DNA from: Desulfobacteraceae bacterium
Lineage (GTDB): Bacteria > Desulfobacterota > DSM-4660 > Desulfatiglandales > Desulfatiglandaceae
Assembly: GCA_030613055.1 (NCBI GenBank)
Contig: JAUWMR010000017.1
Span: 1 to 64,000, forward strand
Length of the DNA stretch: 64,000 nt
Direction: 5' to 3'
The notes under the pieces are model-generated. The model made no database searches, was not told the DNA's origin, and worked only from the letters and a program-made list of their open reading frames with translations. Made by a program: the position numbers and the translations under genes. Numbering within the stretch: the first letter of the stretch is position 1; the number at the start of each line of letters is the position of its first letter. Below are positions 14,004 to 33,159 of the stretch, one piece after another.

Positions 14004-15149
14004 TCAATTAGTTACCCTTGGACCTATTATTTGATTCCCTATAAACTCTCTCTGAATTTGACCTGACTCAATAAAAAGATCTAATGCCTTTGCATCCCGG
14101 TAAAAATGCTCTATATGTGTCTCTGTCATATAGCCATAACCACCAAATATTTGCAGTGCTTCGTAGGTTACCTGATAGGCTGTTCTTGATGCCACCATCT
14201 TGGCCATAGCTGCCAATGAGGAATCGGCTTTGCCGTGGTCAAATTTCCAGGCTACTTTGTATGTAAGAAGTCTTGCGAGCTCTAATTCCACATACATATC
14301 GGCTAGTTTGTTTCTGATTGTTGGAAATGCAGCAATAGCTTTGCCAAATTGCTCTCTATTCTTTGCGTAGGTCAAGGCCATATCCAATCCGCCCTGTGCG
14401 ATCCCTACCGCCATGGCTGCAGCTTCGATCCTCATCTGGTCAAGAAATTCTCTCAGATACAGATGGCCTTTTTCTTCATCTCCTAATCTGTTTTTTTCGA
14501 GCACTTCCACATCTTTGAGTGAAATCCGGCTTACAGGAACCATCCTCATGCCAACTTTCTCTCCCATGGAAAGTACTTCAATCCCCTCTGTGTCCATCTC
14601 CAGAATAATTGATATCTGACATTCAGGTCTAGTAGTGTCTGATTGACAGATAATGATTGCAAAATCAGCCAGCTCCCCATAGACAACAAATGATTTAAGT
14701 CCGTTAATCAAATATCCACTTTCTGCCTTTACCGCAGTTGTCAAAAGCGATGTCAAAGAACGTTCTTCTTCCATAAAGGCCAAGGTGGAGATCGCTCTTC
14801 CTTCAGTGATGGGAGAGAGAAATTTCTCCTTCTGGGCCTCATTCCCCTGCCTGAGAATGATTTCTGAGCCAAAATCGGAAAGTGCGATGGCAATACCTAT
14901 TCCAGAGTCCTTCCGGCAAAACTCTTCTACAATCAAACAATTTTCTAAGATCCCATAATCACCCCCACCAAGGGCCTCTGGGAAATGTAGCCCAACAAAT
15001 CCGAGCTCGCAGGCTTTCCGCCAAATCTCATCAGGAAACTTCTCTTCAGCATCGAATTCTAAGGCCTGATCCTCATCGAATTCACCTATGGCAAAATCCC
15101 TTGCCGCTCTTTGTATATCTTTCTGCTCTTTTGTTAATTGAAAGTCCAT
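14004..15149 (-). CDS. Acyl-CoA dehydrogenase, canonical Glu base
   Basis: 381 residues. The start at 15149 is the ATG that shares one base with the stop of the upstream ACAD (TGATG), showing translational coupling. Typical ACAD layout: N-terminal helical domain with FPDEIWRKACELGFVGLHFP, central beta domain GYLINGLKSFVVYG, C-terminal AYQVTYEALQIFGGYGY. The catalytic Glu of medium-chain ACADs is present in LFIESGQIQRE. In the beta domain the usual TEP motif reads FMEEERSL, less typical, so the substrate may differ. Paired with the next ACAD it may form a heteromeric enzyme or act on a neighbouring intermediate. Confidence 0.92.
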   Translation of the reverse strand: MDFQLTKEQKDIQRAARDFAIGEFDEDQALEFDAEEKFPDEIWRKACELGFVGLHFPEALGGGDYGILENCLIVEEFCRKDSGIGIAIALSDFGSEIILRQGNEAQKEKFLSPITEGRAISTLAFMEEERSLTSLLTTAVKAESGYLINGLKSFVVYGELADFAIIICQSDTTRPECQISIILEMDTEGIEVLSMGEKVGMRMVPVSRISLKDVEVLEKNRLGDEEKGHLYLREFLDQMRIEAAAMAVGIAQGGLDMALTYAKNREQFGKAIAAFPTIRNKLADMYVELELARLLTYKVAWKFDHGKADSSLAAMAKMVASRTAYQVTYEALQIFGGYGYMTETHIEHFYRDAKALDLFIESGQIQREFIGNQIIGPRVTN

Positions 15150-16297
15150 CAAATGCCCAGACTCTTGGCGATAATCCTCTTCATGATTTCATTGGTCCCG
15201 CCGTATATTGTATTTACTCTTACGTCCCTGAACCATCGTCCAATCTTGTATTCTTCCAGATAACCATAGTCTTGGTATATCTGCATGCACTGTGAGGCCA
15301 CACTGTTGGATAGATCGGATGTCCACCATTTGGCCATAGAAACCCCTTTTACAATATCTCTTTTTTCGATATGATCCCTGATAAGGTTTTCTACGAATGT
15401 GCGACTTATCTTAATCTCGGTAGCCATTTCGACAATCTGGGTAGTATCATGAATTGAATAGCCAATCGATTTTTTGGTCCCGCCCTTTTTTTGAAGGTAG
15501 TTCATGGTTTGGTCAAACGTCGCCTCGGCCTGAACCTGGAAAGCAATAGATGCAATAAGTCTTTCCTGCTGAAGTTTTTGCATTAAATAGTAAAAACCTT
15601 GACCTTCCTCTCCCAGCAGATTAGAAACCGGCACACGGCAGTCTATAAATATCAATTCAGCCGTATCCTGGCTATGCAGACCCATCTTTTTCAGATTCCG
15701 ACCCTTAGAGAAACCCTGGGTTCCATCTTCGACACAGATCAGGCTGACATTCCCATAAGGAGTTTTTGCACCTGTCTCTGTTTTACAAGCAATAATGGCC
15801 AGATCACATTTAATACCATTTGAAATGAAGGTCTTTTCTCCATTGATAACAAAGTGGTTTCCATTCTTAACTGCTGTAGTCTGGATAGATGCCAGATCTG
15901 AGCCAGCATTAGGTTCGGTCATGGCCAGGGACAATATGATGTCTCCGGAAACAGCTCCGGGCAACCACCTTTTCTTCTGTTCTTCCGTACCAAAGCTATC
16001 AATGTACGGAGCACATATGTCGCCATGAAGTTCGCAAAATAATCCGCAAAGACCTGCACGCACCATTTCCTCTATGACAATAACTGCATATTCAAAGCCA
16101 AGTTCTCGTCCGCCGTATTTCTTTTCCGCCCAAGTGCAGAGGTAACCGTGCCTTCCTATCTTTTTCCAGATCTCTTTAGGAACAATACCTGCCCTTTCCC
16201 ACTCATTATAGTGAGGCGCTATTTCATGGGTTAGAAAAATTTTAAGCTTTTCTCGAAAAATTTTTTGTTTTTTTGTGTCGGCTGGATTATTTTTCAT
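15149..16297 (-). CDS. Acyl-CoA dehydrogenase, IVD-type base
   Basis: 382 residues with LAMTEPNAGSDLASIQT, VINGEKTFISNG and IYQDYGYLEEYKIGRWFRD. The residue at the medium-chain Glu position is Gly (IYGGTNEIM), but LQQERLIAS supplies a Glu at the isovaleryl-CoA dehydrogenase position. The upstream sequence has only a weak ribosome site. A thiolase 3' remnant lies 39 bases upstream, so this gene and its partner probably once followed a thiolase gene in another cluster and were moved here as a block. Confidence 0.92.
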   Translation of the reverse strand: MKNNPADTKKQKIFREKLKIFLTHEIAPHYNEWERAGIVPKEIWKKIGRHGYLCTWAEKKYGGRELGFEYAVIVIEEMVRAGLCGLFCELHGDICAPYIDSFGTEEQKKRWLPGAVSGDIILSLAMTEPNAGSDLASIQTTAVKNGNHFVINGEKTFISNGIKCDLAIIACKTETGAKTPYGNVSLICVEDGTQGFSKGRNLKKMGLHSQDTAELIFIDCRVPVSNLLGEEGQGFYYLMQKLQQERLIASIAFQVQAEATFDQTMNYLQKKGGTKKSIGYSIHDTTQIVEMATEIKISRTFVENLIRDHIEKRDIVKGVSMAKWWTSDLSNSVASQCMQIYQDYGYLEEYKIGRWFRDVRVNTIYGGTNEIMKRIIAKSLGI

Positions 16298-18335: not shown

Positions 18336-20735
18336 TTAAATCACCTGCTCAGGCCAGATCTCTTTACCTCCAGCAAAACTAACGGTCAGAATTTTAGCAG
18401 GATCGTCCGTCACCTCCACGTTAGGCACCATCTTGTCGGATAGTTTTTCATAACCTGCGGGCACATAGAGTGTAAAATCAAGGGGTCTTACCTCCCCGCT
18501 TGACGTTTTTTCAACATATCTATTTATAGCTTTGGAGTTTGGTTGGCTCATTATTTGGCCCGTATACTGACCTCCATTTTGAGTTAAATCTGCGTACAAT
18601 AAAGCTGATGTGTAAAGGCTGGACAATCCAACATTGTGAGGATAGTCTCGGCCGTATAGAGCCACACCAATCTGGAAAGACTGAGCAAATTGAAAGCTGG
18701 GCCATTTGCCTTTACCGCAGGTGAGGCAAGACAAGAAGGGATCTGGAAAGTCGATATCCAGCTGAGATATTTGGTAGGCCGCACTGCAGGCGGTACCATA
18801 ATAAAATTCCTTCATTACATCATGTCCATTAGAATTCATTGATGAGTCTGAACTTTTCAGCATCTTAGCATATGCAATGAAACGGCCTTTCAGATAGCCA
18901 AATTTTTCAGTCCCCAACTTGGAGATCATTTCACCTGCTGAATGAAGAAAGACACTGAAAATTCCCTTTTTGCCAAAATCTTCATAAGTGACAATTCCAT
19001 CCCCATCCTCGTCATAGGCTTTCAAAAATTCCTGCCTATAGGATGTTCCGGCTAATTTGTCTGAAGCTTCCAGGTAATTAAAGGCTGTCTGTTGCATGTC
19101 CCAGGGGAATTTAAATGTGTCATAGAAAAGTGTATTTGTGACTAAATCAGAAAACCCGTGATTGCTGATCGTGCCTAAATGGCCTTTAAGGGAAACTATA
19201 GGTGAGTCTGTAACGGCGTCGTGGCCGATTACATAATAATTTCTATTTCCCAAACCCCTCTTCTCCGCCAGTTCGAAGCAATCATCACGAGCAAGTGGGC
19301 AATCATATCCTGGCTTAGAGATGATATTATTACCTTCCACCGTAGGTAAAGGGACTGCTTGCGGGAAATGACCATCCGCTCTATCCTTAAGATCCACCTG
19401 CAGAGCCTCTTTAAGAGGAACATTGCTGAACATATACCGGGCACACAAAAGATCAGTTGCAACAGGGTCCAGGCCGGCAAATACTATACCTTCAGGTTCT
19501 TTAACACCTAAACCAATTCCCTGATGGTCCACATTAATTGACTCGATTCCATCAACTACATGGATCATAAAAATGTTCTGGTTCTGGATGGCCCTGATAA
19601 TATCAATCATTGTGGCCGTGATACCGCCGGTTTTTTCAACCATGTAGTTGCCTTTATCATCTCTTTTTGGAAAACCAGTTTCATGGTCCATATTGGGAAC
19701 CCAGACCTGATGCGGTATACCACCTTTTATTCCGGGTATCAGTTTATGAGGGATGCCATAGTCCCATCGGTTACCGCCGGCCTTTACCGACTGCATCGGG
19801 TAAAGCCCGACACCCAGGTTTTTTATAACATTTGTAAATAGTGTAAATGAGTGGACCTTTAACTTTGGCACATTGATCAGAATGCATCTTTGATTGGCTT
19901 GCAAATCCTGGGGGTCTTCCTTCGCTCCGCCCACAACAGCCTTGTGAAGCGTTATGGACTTGTAGTTGACACCATCGGGTACTTTGATATCACGTCCCTT
20001 GGTTTTGTCATCAAATATCCGGTTTAGGTCGTATACCATCAATTTGTCCGATACAAGCCCAGAAGGAATATAGGTTCCTGCAACGCTCTCATCATAGCCT
20101 GCCATTGGATTGTCGCCAGCTCCGGGTTCAAGGGATTCCAATAAATACCTCCGGGCAAAATAAAACCCCCAGCCACCGTGAAAATTGCCAGATTTGCCTT
20201 CAATAACGGCCTCAGGTGTTATCTTCTTTCCGTCAGGGTTTATCATGGAAAACAGGCCTGCCAACGCAGTCGTCATGGTAGCAGCCTCGCCTAAAGCCAT
20301 TTGGTGATAGCTTACACCAAGCTTTTCATGAAACCATCTCATCAAGGCAGCGACAAACGCCCACTCTGTACAGGCAGTGCTTCCTGTGCCAGGACTGTGT
20401 GTCTGAGGGTTTATATTGTTAGCGCTTACCAGGTTGGGTTTAAAAAGCAATTTCTGCCCTTCCTTTAGCCTTGATTTAATTTCGCTGTGAAAGCTGGTTT
20501 CTGCTTTTAAGGGACTTAGAGCCAAATCAAGGTTTTCGTACATATAGTCTATCTTTGCTTTGATCTGCTCCCAGGACTCCTGATCGGAGTTGTTTATGTA
20601 TTCTTGAAGAAGATCCCCTATGCCCACGTAAGATCTGGCTGTATCCATCCGGACCACTCCTACAGGAGACCCTCTACGATCTGGTTCACGCTTTCCAAGA
20701 GGTGAATCTATAATAAATGATTCACGTTTTGTCAT
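18336..20735 (-). CDS. Large DUF362-family protein with an EF-hand-like loop
   Basis: 799 residues, much longer than the usual 300-400 of DUF362. The DUF362 core spans roughly residues 85-480 (LLFKPNLVSANN near the start, ILINVPKLKVHSFTLFTNVI, GLDPVATDLLCARYMF). Near residue 572 is DEDGDGIVTYED, a good match to a calcium-binding EF-hand loop (Asp at 1, 3, 5, Gly at 6, Asp at 12). A late LSCLTCGKGKWPS holds a Cys pair. No signal peptide is visible. DUF362 members are often annotated as iron-sulfur or uncharacterised proteins and the reaction is unknown. AGAGG precedes the ATG. A ligase relic follows directly. Confidence 0.8.
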   Translation of the reverse strand: MTKRESFIIDSPLGKREPDRRGSPVGVVRMDTARSYVGIGDLLQEYINNSDQESWEQIKAKIDYMYENLDLALSPLKAETSFHSEIKSRLKEGQKLLFKPNLVSANNINPQTHSPGTGSTACTEWAFVAALMRWFHEKLGVSYHQMALGEAATMTTALAGLFSMINPDGKKITPEAVIEGKSGNFHGGWGFYFARRYLLESLEPGAGDNPMAGYDESVAGTYIPSGLVSDKLMVYDLNRIFDDKTKGRDIKVPDGVNYKSITLHKAVVGGAKEDPQDLQANQRCILINVPKLKVHSFTLFTNVIKNLGVGLYPMQSVKAGGNRWDYGIPHKLIPGIKGGIPHQVWVPNMDHETGFPKRDDKGNYMVEKTGGITATMIDIIRAIQNQNIFMIHVVDGIESINVDHQGIGLGVKEPEGIVFAGLDPVATDLLCARYMFSNVPLKEALQVDLKDRADGHFPQAVPLPTVEGNNIISKPGYDCPLARDDCFELAEKRGLGNRNYYVIGHDAVTDSPIVSLKGHLGTISNHGFSDLVTNTLFYDTFKFPWDMQQTAFNYLEASDKLAGTSYRQEFLKAYDEDGDGIVTYEDFGKKGIFSVFLHSAGEMISKLGTEKFGYLKGRFIAYAKMLKSSDSSMNSNGHDVMKEFYYGTACSAAYQISQLDIDFPDPFLSCLTCGKGKWPSFQFAQSFQIGVALYGRDYPHNVGLSSLYTSALLYADLTQNGGQYTGQIMSQPNSKAINRYVEKTSSGEVRPLDFTLYVPAGYEKLSDKMVPNVEVTDDPAKILTVSFAGGKEIWPEQVI

Positions 20736-20815: not shown

Positions 20816-21148
20816 TTAATAATCGTTGAGGATTTTGCCGGTGCGGGCCTTTTCGATTGTTTCATCTAAGCCAGGTCCCAGATCCACGCCCAATTCCTTG
20901 ACTCTTTTCTTGGCCCAAAGGCCGACGTTCCGATCGTCATTGAAAAAAGAATCGTCTCGGGGTGCATTGGTATCAAATTCATCCAACCGCTGTGCTTCGG
21001 TCTTGCGGAAAAAAACCCTGGAAAGAACGCGAACGAGGTGATCACCCTGACACTGGCTGCATCGCACCTCTTTTTCGTCTTTGGATCTAAGGATCAGGGC
21101 ACTGGTGATCCTTCCACACGATTTACACTGATATTCGTAAATGGGCAC
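20816..21148 (-). CDS. FmdB-type zinc-ribbon protein with C-terminal extension
   Basis: 110 residues starting with GTG at 21148 (AAAGGAAA site). The first 45 residues are an FmdB/CxxC zinc ribbon: MPIYEYQCKSCGR and VRCSQCQGDHLVRV, four cysteines in two pairs. The charged C-terminal part (RLDEFDTNAPRDDSFF onwards) is not part of the domain. FmdB-like proteins are often called regulators, without firm proof. Here it follows the ACAD-ferredoxin-nitroreductase fusion by 85 bases and may help its assembly or control; that is a guess. Confidence 0.85.
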   Translation of the reverse strand: MPIYEYQCKSCGRITSALILRSKDEKEVRCSQCQGDHLVRVLSRVFFRKTEAQRLDEFDTNAPRDDSFFNDDRNVGLWAKKRVKELGVDLGPGLDETIEKARTGKILNDY

Positions 21149-21233: not shown

Positions 21234-23531
21234 TTACCCCTCGATTTCCGGGCCATCCCTACCGGGCCGGAACCAGGTCACGGGCCGGAACTGCCGGGGC
21301 ACCAACCCCTCCTGGTTGAACTTGGGATATCCCAGCACCATGGCGGCTTGGATCCGCCAAGGTTTTTCAAGACCAAGCTTGGCCTTAAGTTTGGGGATCA
21401 GTTCCACCCTTGCGCCGAACCCAGTCCAGCAAAAACCCAGGCCCAGTGATTTCGCGGCCAGGTTCATATTTTGTCCGCAGATGCCTGCATGTTGCTCAGG
21501 GGAGACCATCCGGTCGTTGCCAGCCAGTAAGATAACTACCGGCGCGTTCATAAAGATCGACAGTTCTTTCCTGGCCACACAACCTACCCCCCCTTGGACG
21601 CGGGGATCAAACACGCCGACCGGAATGGGTTCTCCCAACATTTGGACCATGCCCATGACCATGGTGTCGTTATGGTACGAAGTATGCGTCATGTTTATTA
21701 CTTTATATACGGCCTCTTCCATTTCATTGATAAAATCTTTGTCCGTCACCACTACAAATCTCCAGGGCTGGTTGTTACCAGCACTCGGCGCGAACCGGCC
21801 CGTCTCCAATACCCTGCGAATAAGCGGATCTGGCACGTGGGTGTCCTTGAAGTTCCTTACACTGCGGCGCTCGATGATGGTCCGCTCGACCTCTGTCCAT
21901 TCCGCGCGATTGCCTTCTGTGTCTTGAGGTTCAAGCGGCATCTTGACCGGTGGGTATCCGGTGTCGAAGAAGCCACCATCCACATGGTATGGTTCAACAA
22001 TGGAGATGGCATCCACCGGGCAAGCCACCATGCAGTTGAAGCAGGAAAAACAGGCATATTTCTCCTTCATCTTCGGAACTTCGTTTTCATCCATTTCCCA
22101 GCACTTGAAGGGGCAGTTTAAAATGCATAGCCCGCAATTGGTGCACTTGTCAGGGTCGGTCTTCATAACACCCATGTGCACACCAGTCGGGCGGAGCATG
22201 GGCTTCAGGTCCTCAAAGGTCGGACCTGTCAGAACCTTGCCAGTTGGGGCCACCTGGGCCGTCCCCTCCTTAATGTCCAAGATCAGCTTGCCACTCCCCA
22301 GCCTCTCCGCTCCGTCAAGGGCCAGGGTCTCGTTGGTCCCGTCTTCGATCAGGGCGGCGCGGGCGTCCCGGAAGATCTTTTCGATGAGATACTCTTTGGA
22401 AAGGCCGTAGCTGCCGTGGATCTGGACTGCCTCACTGGCCACCTTGAAGGCGGTCTCGGTGGACATGATTTTAGAAGCCTGGGCATAGTGGACGGCCAGG
22501 GGCCGCATCTGTTTAGAAAGGCTGTGGTTGTAAACCGCCACCCGTCGGGAGAGAGAACGGGCCGCCTCCACTGAGACGAACATGTCGAAAAGCTTCAGCC
22601 TGACAGCCTGATGCTTGAAGATGATCTTTCCCCCCTGTATCCTGGTCATGGCATACTGGAGGGCCTCCTCCAGGGCTGCTTGGGCGCACCCCGTAAAGCA
22701 CGACCCTATCCAGCCGTTGGCCGCGCCAAGCTGGATGTTGGAAAAGAGCTTGAAGGCCTCCGGATCGGCGGCGACCATCATCTTCTTGGGAATACGAACG
22801 TTGTCAAAGAAAATCTCTCCCTGGTTCAGTGCCCGCTGGCCGAGCTTATCTAAGGCTTTTCCCCGGGATATGCCCGGCAGGTCGAGAGGAATGACCGCGA
22901 TCCCGCCGCCTTCATTACCCTTGGACGGGTCCAGAGACAGCCAGAGGGCCGCGTATTTTGCGAAGGTGCCGTTGCTGACCCAGGATGACTTCTGGCCGTT
23001 GATCACATATGAATCTCCATCCTCCACGGCCCTGACCCGATAGGCCAGTTCGGGTACATCATAGTATTCCCCTGCGAAACGTAGCGAGTCCGAACCATGG
23101 TCCGGCTCGGTGATGGCCCAGCACCCGGTCAATTTGCCATCTGTGTCCGCACAGAATTGCTTTGCCAACTCCCGCATTTCCGGATCAGGAGATACAAGGG
23201 CCCATAGATAAGGCATCTGGCAGACACCCCAACTGACGGCCAGGTCTGAGGCGGCCCAGCCCATCAGTTCAATAAGCAGGGTTGAAGTCAAAGGATCGAC
23301 GTCCATACCGCCAACCTCTTCTGGAAAGGTCATTTTGTGGTAGCCCAGTTCGTTGGTTTTACGAAATACATCCCACAAGACGGAGTCCTCGGCGATCACG
23401 TCTTGCGGGTCGGTAACCCTATCCAGCTCGCTGGCCGCCGGCCGCCATACCTCTTTGACAAATTTTCTTGCCGAATCCCAAACGGCAACATGCTCTTTGG
23501 TCAGATCGATATTAAGGTCTCTCAGCCCCAT
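21234..23531 (-). CDS. Acyl-CoA dehydrogenase / 2[4Fe-4S] ferredoxin / nitroreductase fusion
   Basis: One 765-residue chain joins three redox modules. Residues 1 to ~410 are an ACAD (CWAITEPDHGSDSLRF, VINGQKSSWVSNG, AVQIHGSYGLSKEY). The catalytic Glu position reads IEDGTNETL, so the base would be Asp. Residues ~455-515 hold two [4Fe-4S] motifs, CTNCGLCILNCPFKC and CFSCFNCMVACP. Residues ~545-765 are an FMN nitroreductase (ERRSVRNFKD, RFAPSAGNNQPWRF). Electrons could run from acyl-CoA FAD through the clusters to FMN and then NAD(P) or ferredoxin, or the reverse, bypassing ETF. The frame is open throughout with a good ribosome site and no sign of decay. The region is richer in GC than its neighbours. 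Confidence 0.93.
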   Translation of the reverse strand: MGLRDLNIDLTKEHVAVWDSARKFVKEVWRPAASELDRVTDPQDVIAEDSVLWDVFRKTNELGYHKMTFPEEVGGMDVDPLTSTLLIELMGWAASDLAVSWGVCQMPYLWALVSPDPEMRELAKQFCADTDGKLTGCWAITEPDHGSDSLRFAGEYYDVPELAYRVRAVEDGDSYVINGQKSSWVSNGTFAKYAALWLSLDPSKGNEGGGIAVIPLDLPGISRGKALDKLGQRALNQGEIFFDNVRIPKKMMVAADPEAFKLFSNIQLGAANGWIGSCFTGCAQAALEEALQYAMTRIQGGKIIFKHQAVRLKLFDMFVSVEAARSLSRRVAVYNHSLSKQMRPLAVHYAQASKIMSTETAFKVASEAVQIHGSYGLSKEYLIEKIFRDARAALIEDGTNETLALDGAERLGSGKLILDIKEGTAQVAPTGKVLTGPTFEDLKPMLRPTGVHMGVMKTDPDKCTNCGLCILNCPFKCWEMDENEVPKMKEKYACFSCFNCMVACPVDAISIVEPYHVDGGFFDTGYPPVKMPLEPQDTEGNRAEWTEVERTIIERRSVRNFKDTHVPDPLIRRVLETGRFAPSAGNNQPWRFVVVTDKDFINEMEEAVYKVINMTHTSYHNDTMVMGMVQMLGEPIPVGVFDPRVQGGVGCVARKELSIFMNAPVVILLAGNDRMVSPEQHAGICGQNMNLAAKSLGLGFCWTGFGARVELIPKLKAKLGLEKPWRIQAAMVLGYPKFNQEGLVPRQFRPVTWFRPGRDGPEIEG

Positions 23532-23630: not shown

Positions 23631-24884
23631 TCACTTCTTCAGGATAGTTACAGACAGTGCCGCTTCTGAGGCATTCACGTTTCCACCTGCATTCTGAGCC
23701 AGACCGACCTTTGCGCCTTCGACCTGGCGTTTTCCGGCCCGTCCTCCGCCGGTCAGGTGCCAGTAAAGCTCCACCACCTGGCGCACCCCCGTGGCCCCGA
23801 TGGGATGGCCTTGCGATTCCAGGCCGCCAGAGACGTTGATCGGGAGCCCTCCACCCAGAGTACTATTGCCAGCCTCGGCAAAGGGGCCGCCTTCACCGCG
23901 TGGGCAAAACCCCAGTTCTTCGGTTGCGCCGAGTTCGCCAAAGGCTGTGGCGTCATGAACCTCGGCAACATCAATGTCATCCGGCCCGATTCCGGCTCGT
24001 TCGTAAGCCCTTTTGGCCAGCCATGCCAGGGTACTCTCTTTCCTTTCCTCAGAGGGATCCTCTCCGCTCGCCAGCATACAGGCCGCCACCTCAACGGCAT
24101 GGCTGGCGCCTATTTTCTTAGCGAATTCCTCAGAGCAGATGACTACGGCGGCTACCCCGTCGCCAATGGGAGAGCACATTGGCCTGGTCAAGGGGTAGGC
24201 TACTTCCGGGGCCTCAAGGACTTCTTCCACGGTGAATAAGTTTTGGTATTGGGCCAGAGGGTTCATCGAGGAGTGATAGTGGTTCTTGGATGCTATCACT
24301 GCTAACTGTCTCTGGGTGGTACCGTATTTCTTCATGTGGTTCCGGGCTGTCCAGGCATAAGCGTCCATAAACACTGACCGCTGGCCGGACTTTTTCTTCT
24401 TGGCTTCCCCTCTGGCTTCCATTTCCTTTTTGATTTTTTTCTCTTGGTTGGCAAATGCTTGCATGAGCTGGGGCAAGATTTCGACGTCCATACACCCAGT
24501 GAAGGCGGGTAGGACCTTGCTTCGATTCTCAAAATACATCTTCTCCATTCCCACGGCCAAGGCAACATCCATCTCACCCAACGCCACCATGGCCCGGGCT
24601 CCGTGAAGTGCTGTGGCCGAAGAAGCGCAGGCGTTTTCAACATTCACCACCGGGATGCGTCCGATACCCATGGCCCGCATGACCACCTGGCCTCGGATGG
24701 ATTCCTGGCCGGTCAGGACCCCCTGTGACGCGTTGCCGACCCAGACTCCTTCAAGCTGGTCCTTCGTCAGGCCCGCGTCTTTGAGTGTCCCGTTGACCGC
24801 CTCGGCCACCAGCGACTTCAAGCTGCGGTCCATGTGGCGTCCGAATTTGGTCATAGCCCCCCCGATTATTTTGACTTTACGCAT
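23631..24884 (-). CDS. Thiolase (acetyl-CoA acetyltransferase family)
   Basis: 417 residues from the ATG at 24884 (MRKVKIIGG). The open frame runs 76 codons further upstream into the ligase gene, but that part has no thiolase character. The nucleophilic Cys is intact in VENACASSATALHGA, and GHPIGATG and the C-terminal VGLAQNAGGNVN are present. This differs from the two Cys-less proteins at 7811 and 8990, so it is probably a true thiolase. A Lys-rich insertion at MEARGEAKKKKSGQRS is unusual. No DUF35 gene adjoins it. It forms an operon with the ligase upstream and the redox fusion downstream. Confidence 0.92.
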   Translation of the reverse strand: MRKVKIIGGAMTKFGRHMDRSLKSLVAEAVNGTLKDAGLTKDQLEGVWVGNASQGVLTGQESIRGQVVMRAMGIGRIPVVNVENACASSATALHGARAMVALGEMDVALAVGMEKMYFENRSKVLPAFTGCMDVEILPQLMQAFANQEKKIKKEMEARGEAKKKKSGQRSVFMDAYAWTARNHMKKYGTTQRQLAVIASKNHYHSSMNPLAQYQNLFTVEEVLEAPEVAYPLTRPMCSPIGDGVAAVVICSEEFAKKIGASHAVEVAACMLASGEDPSEERKESTLAWLAKRAYERAGIGPDDIDVAEVHDATAFGELGATEELGFCPRGEGGPFAEAGNSTLGGGLPINVSGGLESQGHPIGATGVRQVVELYWHLTGGGRAGKRQVEGAKVGLAQNAGGNVNASEAALSVTILKK

Positions 24885-24906
24885 AGTCCTATTTTCCTTT
24901 TCTGAA

Positions 24907-26514
24907 CTAACTGTGATCTTCAAATTTGTACACGTTGTTGGCCTCCGGATTGAACTCTTCCCGCAGCAAACGGTCCAAATTTTTTTCGGAAGCGGTTTTA
25001 GGTATCTCTTGGACGACCTGGAGATAGGACGGTACGCTGTTCCGTTCAAGCCCGGCAGCGCAAAGGTCGAAGATCCCTTTGATATTGGGGGTGCGGCCTG
25101 CTGTTGGGACAATGGCCGCTACCAGGTCACTTTCACCTGGCGCACCGGATGCGGCCTTCACCCCGTAAACGCAGATTTCGTTTATGTCAGGATGCTCGGC
25201 TACCACTCCTTCCACGTACTCGGGCATGATGAAATCCCCCTGGCGCCTCAGACCGCCTCCCTTGCGGAAGTCGAAATAGAACCACCCGTCCTCGTCCGTG
25301 TGGACCATATCTCCTGAGCGCAACCAGCCTCCGCGGATCTTAGTTTTCGAAGCCTTCTTTTTACCATGGTAATCCACTTCGGTCTCTCCCTTACCCATGC
25401 GAGAGATAAGTTCTCCGATCTCGCCAGGCTCGCATTCCGTGTCGTCTTCGCGAACAACCTTCATCTCCATGATCCCTTCCAGGGGCTTACCAAAGGAACC
25501 GACTGGACCGACTCCGGGTGGCTTGTGGGCAAAACCGCCTTCCACTGCGCCGTACCACTCGTGAATTTTGACGTTGAAACGTTTTTCAAAGTCTTCCCAG
25601 ATACCTCGGGGCGTGCCCGCACTGAGGATGACCCTAACAGGGTTGTCTCCATCGTCTGCCCGGACCGCTTCGGAGTAAACCCCCATCATCATCCCCCCCA
25701 GGAGCGAGAAGGTCGTGCAGCCGTATTGCCGACAGATGTCCCAGATGCGGCTCTTGGTAAACCTGCGGGAAATCACAGCCGGTATACTGTTTAAAAGAGC
25801 AGGGCCCAAAGTCACAGCCTGAGCGTTTCCATGGGTCAACGATAGGCCGGTGTATAGCTTGTCCTCCGGAGTGTACTGCCAGACGTAATCCGCCAGCATG
25901 ACGTAACCCTTCAACCGGTTGGCACGTATCCTGACGCCCTTGGGGTCGCCGGTGGTTCCCGAGGTGTAAGCAATCATGAAATAGTCTTTCGGATCATGGG
26001 GACCCGGATCGAACATCTGAGCTTCGGGGCCTTCCAGGAATTCTTTCAGGTCCGGATACTTGGGAGAAACCGAAACCCCGAACTCCGGATTGTACATGCA
26101 GCCGATAGTCTTAACATTAGGGAGGCGCGACAGGGTTTCATCCATGGCCTCCATGAACTCGGCGGCAAAGATTACGCCCTTGGAGCCCGAATCCATAATC
26201 TGGTACCTCAGTTTTTCCCCCTTGGACCTGGGGTCGATGGGGACTACGATCGCTCCCAGGGCCGAGGCCGCGTACATGGACATGACGATCTCCGGATGGT
26301 TGCGCATCACGATAGAAAAGGTGTCCCCTCGGCCGATGCCCATATTTTCCATTTCTCGAGCCAGCTTGTTGCCTCTGAGAACGAGATCGGAATAGGTGAG
26401 TATCTCATCAGAATACGGGTGGTTTTCAAAAGTGACCACCGGAAAGTCAGGGTTCTCCCCGGCCTTGGCCATCATGTCAAAAGCCATTACACCAGGGATT
26501 TTGCTCTCAGTCAT
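24907..26514 (-). CDS. AMP-forming acyl-CoA ligase, CaiC-like
   Basis: 535 residues from the ATG at 26514, with GAGG 7 bases upstream; a longer frame would overlap the LivF gene. It carries AYTSGTTGDPKGVRI, SAGTPRGIWEDFEKRF, GGWLRSGDMVHTDEDGWFYF and C-terminal PKTASEKNLDRLLREEF. In the last motif the usual S-G-K reads S-E-K, keeping the lysine. GGFAHKPPGVGPVGSFG and the Arg/Gly-rich hinge are closer to crotonobetaine/carnitine-CoA ligases than to the other ligases here. The substrate is unknown. It is codirectional with the Liv importer immediately upstream. Confidence 0.92.
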   Translation of the reverse strand: MTESKIPGVMAFDMMAKAGENPDFPVVTFENHPYSDEILTYSDLVLRGNKLAREMENMGIGRGDTFSIVMRNHPEIVMSMYAASALGAIVVPIDPRSKGEKLRYQIMDSGSKGVIFAAEFMEAMDETLSRLPNVKTIGCMYNPEFGVSVSPKYPDLKEFLEGPEAQMFDPGPHDPKDYFMIAYTSGTTGDPKGVRIRANRLKGYVMLADYVWQYTPEDKLYTGLSLTHGNAQAVTLGPALLNSIPAVISRRFTKSRIWDICRQYGCTTFSLLGGMMMGVYSEAVRADDGDNPVRVILSAGTPRGIWEDFEKRFNVKIHEWYGAVEGGFAHKPPGVGPVGSFGKPLEGIMEMKVVREDDTECEPGEIGELISRMGKGETEVDYHGKKKASKTKIRGGWLRSGDMVHTDEDGWFYFDFRKGGGLRRQGDFIMPEYVEGVVAEHPDINEICVYGVKAASGAPGESDLVAAIVPTAGRTPNIKGIFDLCAAGLERNSVPSYLQVVQEIPKTASEKNLDRLLREEFNPEANNVYKFEDHS

Positions 26515-26534
26515 TGCTTCCCTCTGCGGAAAAA

Positions 26535-27329
26535 TTATCCTACCCATCTTTTTCGTCTTTTGTAATGTTTAACATCTCGATAACTTTTTCTTTTTCCGAT
26601 TTTACTCAAGCCGAGATAGAATTCCTTGATATCTTCGTTCTCTATTAATTCCGCCGCAGGGCCGTCCATCACAATCCTTCCATTTTCTATAACATAGGCA
26701 TGATCGGAAATGGAAAGGGCCATCATGGCGTTCTGTTCCACCAATAGGAAGAAAGTTCCTTCCTTTTTATTTAGACGTTTGATGATCTTGAATATGTCTT
26801 CGACTAAAATAGGGCTAAGTCCCAGTGAGGGTTCATCCAGTAACATCAGTTTAGGTCGTGCCATGAGCCCACGGCTCATAACCAGCATCTGCCTCTCACC
26901 TCCTGAGAGGTAACCACTAACGCGCTGACGCATTCCTCTGAGCACGGGAAAATAATTATAGACCATCTCAAGATCCCTTTTAATCCCAGTGGTATTTTTT
27001 CGAGAGGAGGCCCCTACTATCAGGTTCTCTTCTACTGTCAGGTTCTCAAATGAGGGGCGGCCTTCCATGACCTGGACAATGCCGTATTTCACTATTTCTT
27101 CGGGGTTTTTCTGGTCTATTCGTTGGCCATCAAAGACGATACTGCCTTCAGTTATCTTTCCCAACTCTGTTTTTAAAAGGCAAGATATCGCTTTGAGAGT
27201 AGTTGTCTTCCCTGCTCCATTTGCACCCAGAAGTGCCACAATCTTACCATCGGGGACCTCCAATGTAACTCCTTTTAGGACCAGGATTACATCACTGTAA
27301 ACTACTTCAATATTTGACAGGCTAAGCAT
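26535..27329 (-). CDS. livF: Branched-chain amino-acid-type ABC transporter ATPase (LivF)
   Basis: 264 residues from the ATG at 27329 (GGAGAGGGAAGG upstream); an upstream extension of the frame has no ABC homology. Walker A GANGAGKTT, signature LSGGERQM, Walker B LMLLDEPSLGLSP and the switch His in LLVEQNA are all intact. The C-terminal tail is very basic (KHYKRRKRWVG). LivF with LivG powers import of small organic solutes. In anaerobic degraders Liv-type systems often import aromatic or aliphatic acids rather than amino acids. Confidence 0.93.
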   Translation of the reverse strand: MLSLSNIEVVYSDVILVLKGVTLEVPDGKIVALLGANGAGKTTTLKAISCLLKTELGKITEGSIVFDGQRIDQKNPEEIVKYGIVQVMEGRPSFENLTVEENLIVGASSRKNTTGIKRDLEMVYNYFPVLRGMRQRVSGYLSGGERQMLVMSRGLMARPKLMLLDEPSLGLSPILVEDIFKIIKRLNKKEGTFFLLVEQNAMMALSISDHAYVIENGRIVMDGPAAELIENEDIKEFYLGLSKIGKRKSYRDVKHYKRRKRWVG

Positions 27330-27430
27330 CCTTCCCTCTCCAACTATTTGGAAGAGACTCAATGCGACAAGGTTCGTCGAGATCAGATCATCCTCACTCC
27401 CCTCTTTATGGGCAATGGAAGCGCCCAGGA

Positions 27431-27451
27431 AAAGGGGAATCATTCCCCTTT
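27431..27451 (-). terminator. Hairpin at the lipoprotein stop, possible weak terminator
   Basis: AAAGGGG and CCCCTTT arms pair perfectly around AATCATT and are followed on the minus strand by TTTTCC. The hairpin overlaps the lipoprotein stop codon and precedes livF by 100 bases. The short T-run suggests partial termination or a processing site that would lower livF expression relative to the binding proteins. Confidence 0.45.
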
Positions 27452-27923
27452 ATTTCTTTTTAGGGGGTGGCAACAATTCTAAGATGGCCTTGCTTACTTT
27501 CTCTGATTCGATTCCTGTGGCAACGATCTCATATTTTCCGGGACGAAGGGGCCTGGCCTTTTTAAAGTCAGGCCTCATAAGTGGAGTCCAACCCACCTGA
27601 AACAAGGTGTTCAGAGTGGTTATGGGGCTCAGGGTGGCCTTGAAATTTCCCTTCTCATCCGCGGTGGCAAAGGCGATACCAACTCCATTTTCCTCCCCCT
27701 TTAGCCCTTTCATCTTGATTCCTTGAGGTACTATTAAATCGATCACCACCGTTTCTTTGGGTTGATAGCCGGAGCCGGTAAAGGTAATGGGCTTTTTAAA
27801 CAGGGCTGGGGACAGAACCGTCTTGCCGGGAACAATATTTAGTTTTGGTGCGGCACATGCAACCAGTAATAAACCGAACAAAGATACAATCCCAATTATA
27901 AGGACCAGTTTTTTTGGATTCAT
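27450..27923 (-). CDS. Small exported lipoprotein of the Liv operon
   Basis: 157 residues with a clear lipoprotein signal: hydrophobic stretch at residues 6-20 and lipobox LLVAC, Cys23 being the lipidated residue. The mature part looks like a single beta-sandwich (ITFTGSGYQPKETVVIDL, GKYEIVATGIES), ending in a proline-lysine tail. No named family was recognised. AAGGAG lies 7 bases before the ATG. Placed between the substrate-binding protein and LivF, it may be an envelope-anchored accessory that captures or hands over the ligand. Confidence 0.8.
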   Translation of the reverse strand: MNPKKLVLIIGIVSLFGLLLVACAAPKLNIVPGKTVLSPALFKKPITFTGSGYQPKETVVIDLIVPQGIKMKGLKGEENGVGIAFATADEKGNFKATLSPITTLNTLFQVGWTPLMRPDFKKARPLRPGKYEIVATGIESEKVSKAILELLPPPKKK

Positions 27924-27957
27924 AGATATTCTCCTTTCTTATACACGGGGTAATCGC

Positions 27958-29181
27958 CTAAAATTTATGCAGGGACACGGTATCCGGCGCTGTTATCCAA
28001 CCGGAGATGGGAACTATCTTTTCGCCTGCGACCTTGTAAAATCTGACATGCTTGCTTCCACGCCGCTCTGTAGGGCTGTAGGTGCATGGCCCTTGAACAC
28101 CCTGGGTCGTGTCCTTTCCCGTAAGCTTCTGATATGCCTGATATATGGCCTCTCCATCGACCTTTTCATAACCCACTTTCTTTAAGGCACTTTCAAGGCC
28201 TGTCACAAAGTGCATCGGCATTACCAGTCCCGCCGCATAGATTGGTGACATTTCGCTGATTGGTTTCTTGCGATACTTGGCCCAGAGTTTTTTTACCAGG
28301 GGGTGTGCATAGACATCAGTGCCTCTGATGGTATAGGTGGCGATGACCACTCCCTGCAGTTCCTTGGCGTGAGCCTTGAGTCCCTCCCCCATGATCGGTC
28401 CCCAGACATCGCAGACAAACTGGATATTCTTGGTCATTCCCATCCGATGGGCATCACGGATGACATTGGTATGGGAGGGATTCGCGCCTTCCACATAGAT
28501 ATAATCGGCCCCTTTTAGGCGAGTTAGATAGGTTGTGTGGTCAGTGGAGCCCACAGGGAAGAACTCTGGTTTGAGGAGCTTGACGCCGATCTTTTCAGCA
28601 TATTCCTTTCCCCCACGCAATGGCTCTTTTCCAGCGGCGCTGTCAAAACCCATGTACCCTATGGTAGGCTTGCCAGGTTTTCCCTTTTTCTCCCAATCCC
28701 TTACCATCCAGTCCAAGGCTGCGCCGAAGGTATCCTGGTAGCAATTCCCGGTAGTAAAAGCACGGCCGATTTTGTTTTTGGATACGAATTCTCCATCCCC
28801 CGGGATAGACATAATCAACTTGTCCCTTTCGAGAATCGGATAGATGGCCTTACCAATGTGAGTCCCCTGAGCGACCGCGAGGAGAAGCTTGGGGGTCTTA
28901 CGATACCTCTTGTAGGCTGACATGGCTCGCGCGACATCATAGCGGGTATCCACGGCGATAAACCTGATCTTTACCCCCTGGACACCACCCTTATCGTTGA
29001 TATATTTAAAGAAATCCACGGCGCCCATATCACCTGGGGCCACAATACCCGCGACGGGTCCCGTATAATCTGACAGGCTCAGATAGGCGACCTGTTTTTC
29101 AGCCGCGTGAGATGTGGTAAATGTCACCACCACAAAAATGATCAAAAAAAGCATGGCAGTGCTTCCAATAGTCTTTTTCAT
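27958..29181 (-). CDS. ABC transporter periplasmic substrate-binding protein (LivK-like)
   Basis: 407 residues from the ATG at 29181, which has AAAGGAGG upstream; a longer frame adds 22 residues with no signal character. The signal peptide covers about residues 1-26 (STAMLFLIIFVVVTF, cleavage near SHA). The type I binding fold is seen in YLSLSDYTGPVAGIV, YINDKGGVQGVKIRFI and TIGYMGFDSAAGKE. It delivers the ligand to LivHM. At about 380 mature residues it fits the HAAT family. Ligand specificity cannot be inferred, though acid-degradation neighbours suggest an organic acid. Confidence 0.92.
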   Translation of the reverse strand: MKKTIGSTAMLFLIIFVVVTFTTSHAAEKQVAYLSLSDYTGPVAGIVAPGDMGAVDFFKYINDKGGVQGVKIRFIAVDTRYDVARAMSAYKRYRKTPKLLLAVAQGTHIGKAIYPILERDKLIMSIPGDGEFVSKNKIGRAFTTGNCYQDTFGAALDWMVRDWEKKGKPGKPTIGYMGFDSAAGKEPLRGGKEYAEKIGVKLLKPEFFPVGSTDHTTYLTRLKGADYIYVEGANPSHTNVIRDAHRMGMTKNIQFVCDVWGPIMGEGLKAHAKELQGVVIATYTIRGTDVYAHPLVKKLWAKYRKKPISEMSPIYAAGLVMPMHFVTGLESALKKVGYEKVDGEAIYQAYQKLTGKDTTQGVQGPCTYSPTERRGSKHVRFYKVAGEKIVPISGWITAPDTVSLHKF

Positions 29182-29259
29182 TGGTATTCCTCCTTTCTTT
29201 TTTGTTTGATCGATTTCTCTTCTGAAAACTGCTGATCGCCCAATCACCTCCTTCCTCTG

Positions 29260-30315
29260 CTACTGCTCACCGTATCTAAAGGGATAGAGACGATAAGAGG
29301 TCTTAAAAATCTCCCATCGCCTGGCCAGGCCTCGGGGTTCGTAGATCAGAAAAAGAATTAGAACCAATCCAAAGGCCATAAGTGATAAGGACGCGGCCGA
29401 TCCCATGCCGAGCCAGGGAAACATGTCGACCAGAAAGGGAGAACTGAAAAGCATTAGTTCATCCAGTAGCTTTAAGAATATAACACCGAAGTAGGCACCG
29501 GGAATGCTCCCCAGACCTCCGATAATGATCATCCCGATGTACGTGAGGGCATGAAGCAGGGTGAATTGCTCGGCATTGACCAACATGTACCAGTGGCCTA
29601 AAAGAGAACCTGCAATACCGGCATAGAAGCAAGAGATAAAAAAGGCCAATAGCTTATAATAATAAAGATTAATTCCCATGACCTCAGCTGCCAGATCATT
29701 ATCCCGAATGGCCACGAAGATCCGTCCCATCCTGCTTCTCACCAGGTTTCGGGCGAAAAATGTCAAAATCAGGGTTGCAATCATAATGATGTAATACATC
29801 CGTTCGTCCGTGTCGAAAACGAAGTTGCCAATCTTGGGCGGTGGTGGAGAAAGGCCTTGAGCAAGTCCTGTGATCTTCAAATGTGTGATAACCCACATTG
29901 TCACGTAGAAAATAGCGATGGTGGCCATGGCTAAGTAGAAACCTTTAATGCGCAAGGAGGGCGCCCCGCCAATAATCCCCACCACACCAGCCGCAATTCC
30001 GGAAAGGGGGAGGGCCAACCAGAAAGAGAAGCCGAATTTGAGGGTCAGGACTGCCGAACAGAAGGCGCCCACGGCCATAAAGGCAGGTTGCCCAAAGGAG
30101 ATCTGTCCGGCATAGCCGGTGACAATCTGTAATCCTAAGACCACAATGACTGTAACGAAGATATTGCTCAACAAATTGATGAAATAATAGGAAGCAAACA
30201 GGGGAATGGTAAATAGGAAAGCAATGGTCCCAAGTAAAAGCATCCAATGCTGCCAGGACCTTACAATGGCAATATCCTTCTGATAGGTCTTATCAAATAT
30301 ACCGGAGGCCCGCAT
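29260..30315 (-). CDS. livM: ABC transporter permease (LivM)
   Basis: 351 residues with about eight to ten membrane helices. The diagnostic LivM stretches GYAGQISFGQPAFMAVGAF and IIIGGLGSIPGAYFG are present. AAAGGA precedes the ATG. It follows livH by 17 bases and pairs with it to form the membrane channel. Confidence 0.93.
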   Translation of the reverse strand: MRASGIFDKTYQKDIAIVRSWQHWMLLLGTIAFLFTIPLFASYYFINLLSNIFVTVIVVLGLQIVTGYAGQISFGQPAFMAVGAFCSAVLTLKFGFSFWLALPLSGIAAGVVGIIGGAPSLRIKGFYLAMATIAIFYVTMWVITHLKITGLAQGLSPPPPKIGNFVFDTDERMYYIIMIATLILTFFARNLVRSRMGRIFVAIRDNDLAAEVMGINLYYYKLLAFFISCFYAGIAGSLLGHWYMLVNAEQFTLLHALTYIGMIIIGGLGSIPGAYFGVIFLKLLDELMLFSSPFLVDMFPWLGMGSAASLSLMAFGLVLILFLIYEPRGLARRWEIFKTSYRLYPFRYGEQ

Positions 30316-30332
30316 TTTCCATTCCTTTCTGT

Positions 30333-31217
30333 CTACAGTCTCTCTATTCGGGCCAACCCGAAAAGCCCGTAAGGTTTTATCAACAAGATGAGAAGAAGCA
30401 TCACATAGGCTGCCACATCTTTTATGCCTCCCCCTAAAATAGGATCAAGGTAGCCGGCGCTGATATTTTCCAACAGTCCCAGGATCAACCCGGCCAGGAG
30501 CGCCCCTCCAATGGATTCCATCCCCCCGAAAAGTGCTACGATGAGTCCCTTTATACCGAAATAGGGCAGGGGATAGTGGATATCCGTAACGGTCGCCATG
30601 GCAATTCCCGATATGGAGGCTAATATGGCGGAGATGATCCAGACGTAGGTAAAAATATTTCTCACACTGACCCCGGCACTCTGGGCCAGGCGATGATCTT
30701 CTGCGGTAGCCCGCATCTTGAGACCGACCCTTGTATGTTTGAAGGACAGGGCCAGTATCAAAAAGAGGAAAAAAGATATCAGAAAATTGACTACCTGGCC
30801 CTTAGGCACGATCACCCCGCCAAAATCCCATTGCCCTTGGGGAAGGAAGTGGGGATAGGCGCGAGTCTGGCCTGCCAGGTATAGCTGGAAGGCCCCATCG
30901 AGAAAGATAAAGAGGGCAAAGGTCATGAGAAAAGAGGAGAACAGTGGTTGTCCAATGAGGGGACGCATGGTAAAGCGTTCGATAAAGAATCCCATAAGGC
31001 TTGCCAAAATCAGAGTCAATAGAAAGCTAAGCCAAAGGGGGTACCCTAATCCCACCATAAAGATCCAGAAAAAGAGGGCGCCGAAGGCCAAAAGCTGGCC
31101 GTGGGCGATGCTCACTACTTTACTTGCTTTGAAAACAATAACAATAGTTACACCTATCAGTGAATAGAGCCCTCCTGTGAGCAAACCAATAACTGAAAAC
31201 TGGAGGAAATCTGTCAT
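30333..31217 (-). CDS. livH: ABC transporter permease (LivH)
   Basis: 294 residues, hydrophobic throughout, with LTGGLYSLIGVTIVIVFKAS near the start and VALFGGMESIGGALLAGLIL later, both LivH landmarks. Its ATG overlaps the stop of the upstream acyl-CoA synthetase gene by four bases (ATGA), and GAGGAGG lies before it. The coupling ties uptake to activation of the same acid. Confidence 0.93.
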   Translation of the reverse strand: MTDFLQFSVIGLLTGGLYSLIGVTIVIVFKASKVVSIAHGQLLAFGALFFWIFMVGLGYPLWLSFLLTLILASLMGFFIERFTMRPLIGQPLFSSFLMTFALFIFLDGAFQLYLAGQTRAYPHFLPQGQWDFGGVIVPKGQVVNFLISFFLFLILALSFKHTRVGLKMRATAEDHRLAQSAGVSVRNIFTYVWIISAILASISGIAMATVTDIHYPLPYFGIKGLIVALFGGMESIGGALLAGLILGLLENISAGYLDPILGGGIKDVAAYVMLLLILLIKPYGLFGLARIERL

Positions 31218-33115
31218 TTTTGTTCCTCCTCAACATTGTTCAATCGGATTAGTGTTTTAGTGACTCCTGTTCGGCCGTCGCGATAAGTAATTGATGCCTC
31301 CATCTCGTATTCGTCCATCTCCTCGTAGAGGGCCGTAATCAACTCACTGTAGCTGTCCTCAACATAGGTCCTCCTTAACTTTCGGGTTCTTGTCAATTCA
31401 GCCTCATCAGCATCAAACTCTTTATGCAAATTACAAAATCTTTTAATCCTGGCATGATCCGGAAGGGTGCGGTTGACCTTTGCCACTTCCCTCCTCACCA
31501 GTTCAATCACATCCGGCTTCTGGGAGAGATCAGATAGAGTAGTGTAAGAAACGCTGTTTTTCTCAGCAAACCGCCCAACATTTTGTATATCGATATTGAT
31601 CAGAGCGGTTACATGACTTCTTTTTTCCTCTCCAACAACCAATACATCTTTTATGTAAGGGCTGAAGCGCAGCCTGATCTCGGTATATTGAGGCGAGAAC
31701 TTTTTACCCCCACTGAGGGATTTAAGGTCTTCCATGCGATCGATGACGATCAGATGTCCCTCCTCATCCAAATAGCCAAAATCACCGGTTTGGTAATATC
31801 CATCCTTGAGTTTTTCCTCGGTTGCCTCAGGATTCTTATAATAGCCGGAATACATATATTTGTTTTTGACCAGGATCTCTCCTGCATCCGAGAGCTTGAC
31901 ATCCACCCAGGGTAAAACAGGCCCGCAGGTCTCGGGACGAATGTCGCCTTCAAGAGGAATGGAAACGAAACCTGTCTCAGTGGTGCCATAAAGCATCTTA
32001 ATCTCTACTCCTAAAGCCTGAAAAAAGCGGATGATTTCCGGACTCACAGCAGCCCCGGCTGAGTACACAACCTTTGCCTTATTAAGCCCTAAATTATCCA
32101 GCAACTGCCGGAAAAACACAAAGTGAGCCAAAAAATAGAGGCCCCGCCAAAACAGATTGACCTTTTTCTTTTCCGACTTCAGCCGAGCCACTTTCAGGCC
32201 GATGGGAAGACACATACGGTATATGAATCGCCGCGGCAGGGTGGAATCGATCATTTTCGCCTGGACAGTTCGACTCACCATCTCCCATAACCGGGCTCCA
32301 TAAAAGAGGAGTTCCGGGCTAATTTCTCTTAAGTTCTCCTGAACAGTCTCCGGAGCCTCGGGGAAATTCACAACGATGTCAGATATAAGCGATCCGGCAA
32401 TGCCCATTGATTGCTCCATACCCCATGCGGGGGGAATAAAGGAGAGATAATTGTATCCATTACCCGTCCAATTATCCCTTTCGATCCATGCCTTTCCCCC
32501 CTCGACCATATACCTTTGACTGAAAATGGCTCCTTTGGGCTCACCAGTGGTTCCGGACGTATAGCAGATGACGCCGATATCGTTGCCACTACCCCGGTCA
32601 ACGTTTTGATCAAAAAGGTGTGGATTGGAGCCCTCATATTTTCGACCCAGTTCGAGGACCTCATCAAAACTAATCAGCATGGGATCTCGATAGCTCCAAA
32701 GACCCTTAGGATCCCAGTAAATGACCTTCTTCACCAGAGGGATTTCATCTTTGATCTCCAGAAGCTTATCCACCTGCTCCTGGTCATGGACAACCACAAG
32801 GACTGAATCCGAATGTTTTACATAAAATTTTACTTCAGAGGGCACACAATCGGCGTAGATTCCCACAGTTGCCCCTCCGGCCGATTGAGCTGCAAGCTCA
32901 GCGTAATACCATTCAGGTTTGTTCTCCCCTAAGACAGCGATTTTATCGCCCTTCTTGAACCCTAAGCTTACAAATCCCAAAGAGAGATATTTGACCTTGT
33001 TATAGTATTGCTTCCAGGTGTAACACCGCCAGATCCCCCGGTCTTTTTCTCGCAGAACCTCCTTATTGGGGTATTGCTCATATTGATGTCTTAAAATTTT
33101 TGGTAACGTATCCAA
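31214..33115 (-). CDS. Long-chain-type acyl-CoA synthetase (FadD15/ACSL class)
   Basis: 633 residues, about 120 longer than the other ligases here, as expected for the long-chain class. Motifs are ICYTSGTTGEPKGAIF, MLYGTTETGFVS, YYQTGDFGYLDEEGHLIVID and LKSLSGGKKFSPQYTE. The start is probably TTG at 33115; the ribosome site is weak. It lies inside the Liv importer operon between livG and livH and is translationally coupled to livH, so it probably activates the imported acid. Chain length cannot be told. Confidence 0.9.
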   Translation of the reverse strand: MDTLPKILRHQYEQYPNKEVLREKDRGIWRCYTWKQYYNKVKYLSLGFVSLGFKKGDKIAVLGENKPEWYYAELAAQSAGGATVGIYADCVPSEVKFYVKHSDSVLVVVHDQEQVDKLLEIKDEIPLVKKVIYWDPKGLWSYRDPMLISFDEVLELGRKYEGSNPHLFDQNVDRGSGNDIGVICYTSGTTGEPKGAIFSQRYMVEGGKAWIERDNWTGNGYNYLSFIPPAWGMEQSMGIAGSLISDIVVNFPEAPETVQENLREISPELLFYGARLWEMVSRTVQAKMIDSTLPRRFIYRMCLPIGLKVARLKSEKKKVNLFWRGLYFLAHFVFFRQLLDNLGLNKAKVVYSAGAAVSPEIIRFFQALGVEIKMLYGTTETGFVSIPLEGDIRPETCGPVLPWVDVKLSDAGEILVKNKYMYSGYYKNPEATEEKLKDGYYQTGDFGYLDEEGHLIVIDRMEDLKSLSGGKKFSPQYTEIRLRFSPYIKDVLVVGEEKRSHVTALINIDIQNVGRFAEKNSVSYTTLSDLSQKPDVIELVRREVAKVNRTLPDHARIKRFCNLHKEFDADEAELTRTRKLRRTYVEDSYSELITALYEEMDEYEMEASITYRDGRTGVTKTLIRLNNVEEEQK

Positions 33116-33159
33116 TTTTTTTTATTGCCCCATTTCGTGAATATTCCTCTTTTTGGGGT

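Follow-up and report, generated by a model that had tools for sequence, protein, structure and literature searches.

A replicated gene fusion suggests a fatty-acid-type redox enzyme with a built-in electron partner

For most acyl-CoA dehydrogenases (ACADs), ETF (or oxygen) is regarded as indispensable. A related task is accomplished within one polypeptide by the 2,4-dienoyl-CoA reductase FadH of E. coli, in which electrons pass from NADPH through a flavin, a 4Fe-4S cluster and a second flavin to the unsaturated CoA ester. Ferredoxin-nitroreductases of the Giardia GlNR1 type, composed of an N-terminal ferredoxin domain and a nitroreductase domain, were studied for nitro-drug activation, and we know of none that acts as a partner of an ACAD. 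Nitroreductases usually use NAD(P)H chemistry, and ferredoxin-type clusters are usually low-potential. In the window analyzed here (the whole stretch of 64,000 nucleotides), these elements occur in a single gene (Table 1). The same fusion was found neither among solved structures (PDB) nor in the literature searched, which likewise yielded nothing relevant on an ACAD combined with a nitroreductase (most subscription papers lay outside the coverage of the search); this agrees with the initial annotation, where the arrangement was said to be unfamiliar from characterized enzymes.

The ORF check of the window revealed one frame of 765 codons without interruption, read on the minus strand from 23531 to 21234. 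Pfam and motif analyses agreed with the three-part composition proposed initially, when the strand had been left unstated. Pfam placed the N-terminal, middle and C-terminal ACAD domains at residues 11-411, Fer4/dicluster ferredoxin at 456-511 and nitroreductase at 553-735, the main families scoring over their cut-offs. Membership of the N-terminal module in the ACAD superfamily is supported by PF02771, PF02770 and PF00441 (over cut-off) and by Foldseek (probability 1.00). The best NCBIfam ACAD models scored far under their cut-offs, and the top match, acryloyl-CoA reductase AcrC, reached 175.8 bits, below its curated cut-off of 640. The nitroreductase domain (PF00881, 113.9 bits vs cut-off 23.5) possesses the RRS and PSxGN motifs, with ERRSVR and PSAGNNQPW as FMN motifs. 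The ligand set for 2[4Fe-4S] is complete, comprising C463, 466, 469, 473 and C494, 497, 500, 504 in two CxxCxxCxxxC motifs, and all eight Cys are invariant in 17 unfused relatives. The AlphaFold2 model (59 sequences; pLDDT 90.9, pTM 0.58) predicted disorder at residues 418-434, and a comparison of seven fusions showed that the majority have an Ala/Gly/Pro-rich linker. As modelled, the protein consists of well-defined modules joined by a flexible tether, the mutual placement of the two modules being undefined at this pTM.

Table 1. Features of the fusion gene and its neighbours, with their positions in the window.
Feature	Position	Strand	Description	Evidence
Fusion gene	21234..23531	-	765 aa: ACAD - linker - 2[4Fe-4S] ferredoxin - FMN nitroreductase	ORF, Pfam, AF2
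ACAD module	22299..23531	-	Residues 1-411; Asp397 (IEDGTN) at catalytic-base position	Pfam, alignment to solved ACADs, Foldseek
Flexible linker	22221..22286	-	Ala/Gly/Pro-rich, ~residues 416-437	AF2 pLDDT <50 at 418-434; linkers of seven fusions compared
2[4Fe-4S] ferredoxin domain	21999..22166	-	Residues 456-511, eight Cys	Pfam, motif inspection
FMN nitroreductase domain	21327..21875	-	Residues 553-735	Pfam, motifs, hhalign
SCP-x/Thiolase_C_1-type thiolase	23631..24887	-	Directly upstream of fusion	Pfam, NCBIfam, neighbourhood comparison
AMP-forming acyl-CoA ligase	24907..26547	-	Apparently same operon as fusion	Pfam, NCBIfam, neighbourhood comparison
Small zinc-ribbon (FmdB-like) protein	20816..21148	-	~110 aa, downstream of fusion; relatives near L019, L022, L025 members	

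The Asp of the IEDGTN motif falls, in the alignment to solved ACADs, at the place of the YEGT Glu, and the classical Glu is absent from this position of the fusion ACAD, as had been noticed from the first. Without exception (75/75), the ACADs of the family have Asp at the base position, nearly always as IEDGxN; two more distant relatives (L014 and L017, 37% identical) also possess it, as IMDATN. Among 12 other ACADs inspected, the position was taken by Glu, Gly or another residue and never by Asp. Since the superfamily tolerates various residues here, Asp at this site marks a subfamily, and the family to which the fusion ACAD belongs is uncharacterized. Elsewhere in the window (14004-16297, minus strand), two adjoining ACADs also depart from the usual Glu motif, one with GGT and the other with ESG at the base site.

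When GTDB genome contigs were scanned, the fusion was encountered in seven further loci (L018-L024, 60-76% identity, L024 being cut by the contig start), and related genomes contributed more fused genes (G061:C32, G100:C279, and G135:C34 and C35, truncated at contig ends). Altogether, about 12 distinct genes from eight or more genomes possess the fusion, all uncharacterized. The seven fusions placed in the ACAD tree formed one group with moderate support (SH-aLRT 87), nested among unfused ACADs, several of which adjoin a separate gene for a ferredoxin-nitroreductase (FdNR). The fusion is thus real, replicated and conserved, and is derived from a split ACAD/FdNR arrangement. Far from being unique, the gene is the fused form of a widespread uncharacterized gene pair and exposes a conserved partnership of ACADs with nitroreductases, the function of which we infer. 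An 830-aa frame in G115 was rejected as an extra fusion, as the stretch (L126) is crowded with long shadow ORFs and gave no evidence of fusion.

In many anaerobes the ACAD and the FdNR are separate nearby genes, sometimes in reversed order, as was found at L011, L012, L031 (from Desulfosporosinus), L033, L036, L038, L040, L043, L065, L077, L083, L131, L135, L136 and L137; a more divergent FdNR lies near the family ACAD at L047 and L081. In a set of 395 genomes from the phylum, with E limits of 1e-70 for FdNR and 1e-85 for the ACAD, FdNR occurred in 12, the family ACAD in 48 and both in 11, with a hypergeometric P of ~3e-10 that ignores genome relatedness. Pairwise distances of the two proteins correlate as well (Mantel r 0.61 for 20 loci and 0.74 for 13 unfused ones, p 1e-4). 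The association is specific in that close FdNRs almost always accompany this one ACAD family, and these data are strong evidence that the ACAD and the Fd-nitroreductase work together. Of the initial proposal that acyl-CoA chemistry is wired to an Fe-S/flavin chain, the coupling of the modules across genomes, fused or split, has thus been substantiated, and the electron transfer itself stays at the level of inference.

Some of these loci have additional features. At L131:3618-7673, the interval between the family ACAD and the unfused FdNR contains a MerB-like gene and one with a weak likeness to flavodoxin. At L083:8717-10509, a pair of CoA-transferase-family proteins separates the family ACAD/thiolase from FdNR, and similar pairs occur near Chloroflexota members. 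A Lokiarchaeia record (L096:7995-9014) encodes an FdNR, 54% identical, with ligase and thiolase neighbours, and no family ACAD was seen there.

Two other kinds of nitroreductase-type neighbours were revealed, which family members lacking FdNR often possess. A lone nitroreductase, related to FdNR by hhalign (probability 98), stands beside 15 family ACADs without FdNR, and a DUF2148 pair beside 11 family ACADs and additionally at L013, L085 and L089. The DUF2148 proteins are predicted to have a nitroreductase fold: all of the best 50 PDB matches of the predicted structure (pLDDT 71, moderate) were of this fold, unlike the hhalign comparison with nitroreductases, which gave no clear result. Hence one ACAD family is repeatedly accompanied by nitroreductase-fold proteins of three kinds. 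Of the 42 family ACADs flanked by 4 kb or more in both directions, 15 showed no nitroreductase-type neighbour, a count that predates the DUF2148 pairs of L013, L085 and L089. It may tentatively be proposed that the whole class of Asp-base ACADs uses FdNR, a lone nitroreductase or a DUF2148 pair as dedicated partners independent of ETF, with the fusion as the self-contained form. The DUF2148 genes beside family ACADs (L097:4917-5588, L073:4780-6220, L089:2598-4246 and others) are a lead for this uncharacterized family, on which our literature search, missing most subscription papers, found nothing relevant.

The gene order ligase-thiolase-fusion of the window has counterparts in ligase-ACAD-thiolase-FdNR (L038, L040, L043) and SCP2-ACAD-thiolase-ligase-FdNR-SDR (L047). 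Among the 42 well-flanked loci, the SCP-x-type thiolase family occurs within 5 kb of the family ACAD in 28 and the acyl-CoA ligase family beside it in 21. As relatives have SCP-x thiolase, SCP2, SDR and epimerase-like proteins as neighbours, an acyl-CoA with a branched or cyclic structure is the probable substrate. Also on the minus strand of the window, genes for an ABC transporter of the branched-chain-amino-acid type, with a long acyl-CoA synthetase gene inserted among them, lie upstream of the fusion operon (26535-33957), and a 799-aa DUF362 protein, not seen as a recurring neighbour, is encoded downstream of the fusion (18336-20735).

The FMN/Fe-S module is most likely a dedicated redox partner of the ACAD, and the two modules probably exchange electrons, which would move between the FAD of the ACAD and the FMN of the nitroreductase via the two clusters. 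As the best explanation of the whole, though with confidence a little short of even, we regard the protein as an Asp-base ACAD that carries its own redox partner in one polypeptide and is wired reductively through FMN/2[4Fe-4S]. In the simplest wiring, NAD(P)H would deliver electrons to FMN, from which they would pass singly through 2[4Fe-4S] to FAD and finally to an enoyl-CoA; the fusion would then be an NAD(P)H:enoyl-CoA reductase with a working mode like that of E. coli FadH, made of other parts. If the modules do exchange electrons, the reductive direction is somewhat favoured, as each domain would then keep to its usual chemistry, which for nitroreductases is that of NAD(P)H. It is also favoured by the potentials, as the flow from NAD (about -320 mV) to the level of butyryl-CoA oxidation (about -10 mV) is downhill (PMC8805022). 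The catabolic-looking operon (ligase, thiolase, ABC importer) counts against reduction. The explanation as a whole is weakened by the 15 well-flanked family ACADs devoid of a nitroreductase-type neighbour, by the undefined mutual placement of the modules in the model and by ETF genes near some members of the family.

On the same premise of electron exchange, the oxidative direction has a little under an even chance, so that the route with FMN as the exit for electrons falls only a little behind the reductive one. The corresponding explanation is, as a whole, not very likely. According to it, the ACAD would oxidize an acyl-CoA in a pathway resembling beta-oxidation, and the Fe-S/FMN module would stand in for ETF as acceptor of the electrons and hand them to another carrier. 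It is favoured by L038 and L047, where one family ACAD each is accompanied by ligase, thiolase and SDR, by a dehydratase-like protein beside FdNR in L029 and by the ABC importer upstream in the window. The distribution of ETF genes is consistent with it too: in the window, the fusion has none in its vicinity (within ~30 kb), and five of the six ETF pairs of the genome adjoin other ACADs. We know of no onward electron acceptor for such a route, which tells against it. Moreover, electrons released at about -10 mV (PMC8805022) would have to flow uphill into the clusters, unless these are unusual for their low-potential type.

According to another explanation, which we consider unlikely, the ACAD uses ETF as usual and FdNR is a separate enzyme acting on another intermediate of the pathway, so that fusion would bring co-expression or channelling only. 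Two gene rows speak for it. At L021:876-7378, an Fe-S oxidoreductase (CCG domain) of the kind serving ETF, EtfB, EtfA and the fusion follow in a row, the fusion being directly downstream; at L089, the order is DUF2148 pair-ACAD-thiolase-EtfA-Fe-S oxidoreductase-EtfB. Considering the ETF upstream of the fused gene in L021 and the ETF genes near the family ACADs of L046, L089 and L135, the nitroreductase may act in addition to ETF instead of taking its place, and the statement of the initial annotation that the coupling dispenses with ETF is not established. The broad catalytic repertoire of nitroreductase-fold enzymes would also suit a separate reaction. Arguing against it are the near-constant association of close FdNRs with a single ACAD family and the recurrence there of three different nitroreductase-fold partners.

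That the fusion carries out flavin-based electron bifurcation or confurcation, with its FMN or its FAD as the centre, is highly improbable: the predicted cofactor sites (two for flavins, two for clusters), the ETF genes in a few loci and the flavodoxin-like gene of L131 would suit it, but the ETF scan of the loci detected no ETF beside most fused genes, and to our knowledge no bifurcating nitroreductase fold has been described. That an assembly chimera, a missed stop or accidental read-through joined neighbour genes, as might be suspected in a draft genome of 97 contigs, is practically negligible and was ruled out by the recurrence of the same join, with a similar linker, in the seven other loci and the genes of related genomes, the fused genes placed in the tree falling into one group.

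If the conserved partnership of an ACAD with nitroreductase-fold proteins is true, it would give anaerobes another route by which acyl-CoA chemistry is linked to the redox pool and would suggest a role for the uncharacterized DUF2148 proteins and Fd-nitroreductases; the fusion allows this coupling to be tested on a single purified protein. In comparison with known systems, the module shares the ACAD fold with SCAD 1jqi, its best Foldseek match, and Thermus MCAD 1ukw (28-29% identity over the module), and differs from both in Asp for Glu at the base, an insert of ~12 residues near residue 150 and the fused Fe-S/FMN module. Cyclohexenecarboxyl-CoA dehydrogenase (7p98) has the same fold at ~30% identity; however, it possesses Thr at the base, its Asp91 aligns with Pro106 of the fusion, and it has no fused module, so that the parallel drawn in the initial annotation was rejected on residues. 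The C-terminal half of the fusion has the ferredoxin-nitroreductase domain order of Giardia GlNR1, a likeness at the level of domain description, and FadH, built of an Old Yellow Enzyme barrel and another NADPH domain, is an analogue for which homology is not claimed. In the anaerobe Syntrophus, the ACAD-ETF-EMO chain also connects an ACAD with carriers of the flavin and Fe-S types, but with a separate ETF, a membrane-bound EMO and without a nitroreductase (PMC8805022). Finally, the bifurcating Bcd-EtfAB and caffeyl-CoA reductase-Etf complexes (5ol2, 6fah) combine an ACAD with a dedicated flavoprotein partner, as is proposed for the fusion, the partner there being ETF and here a nitroreductase.
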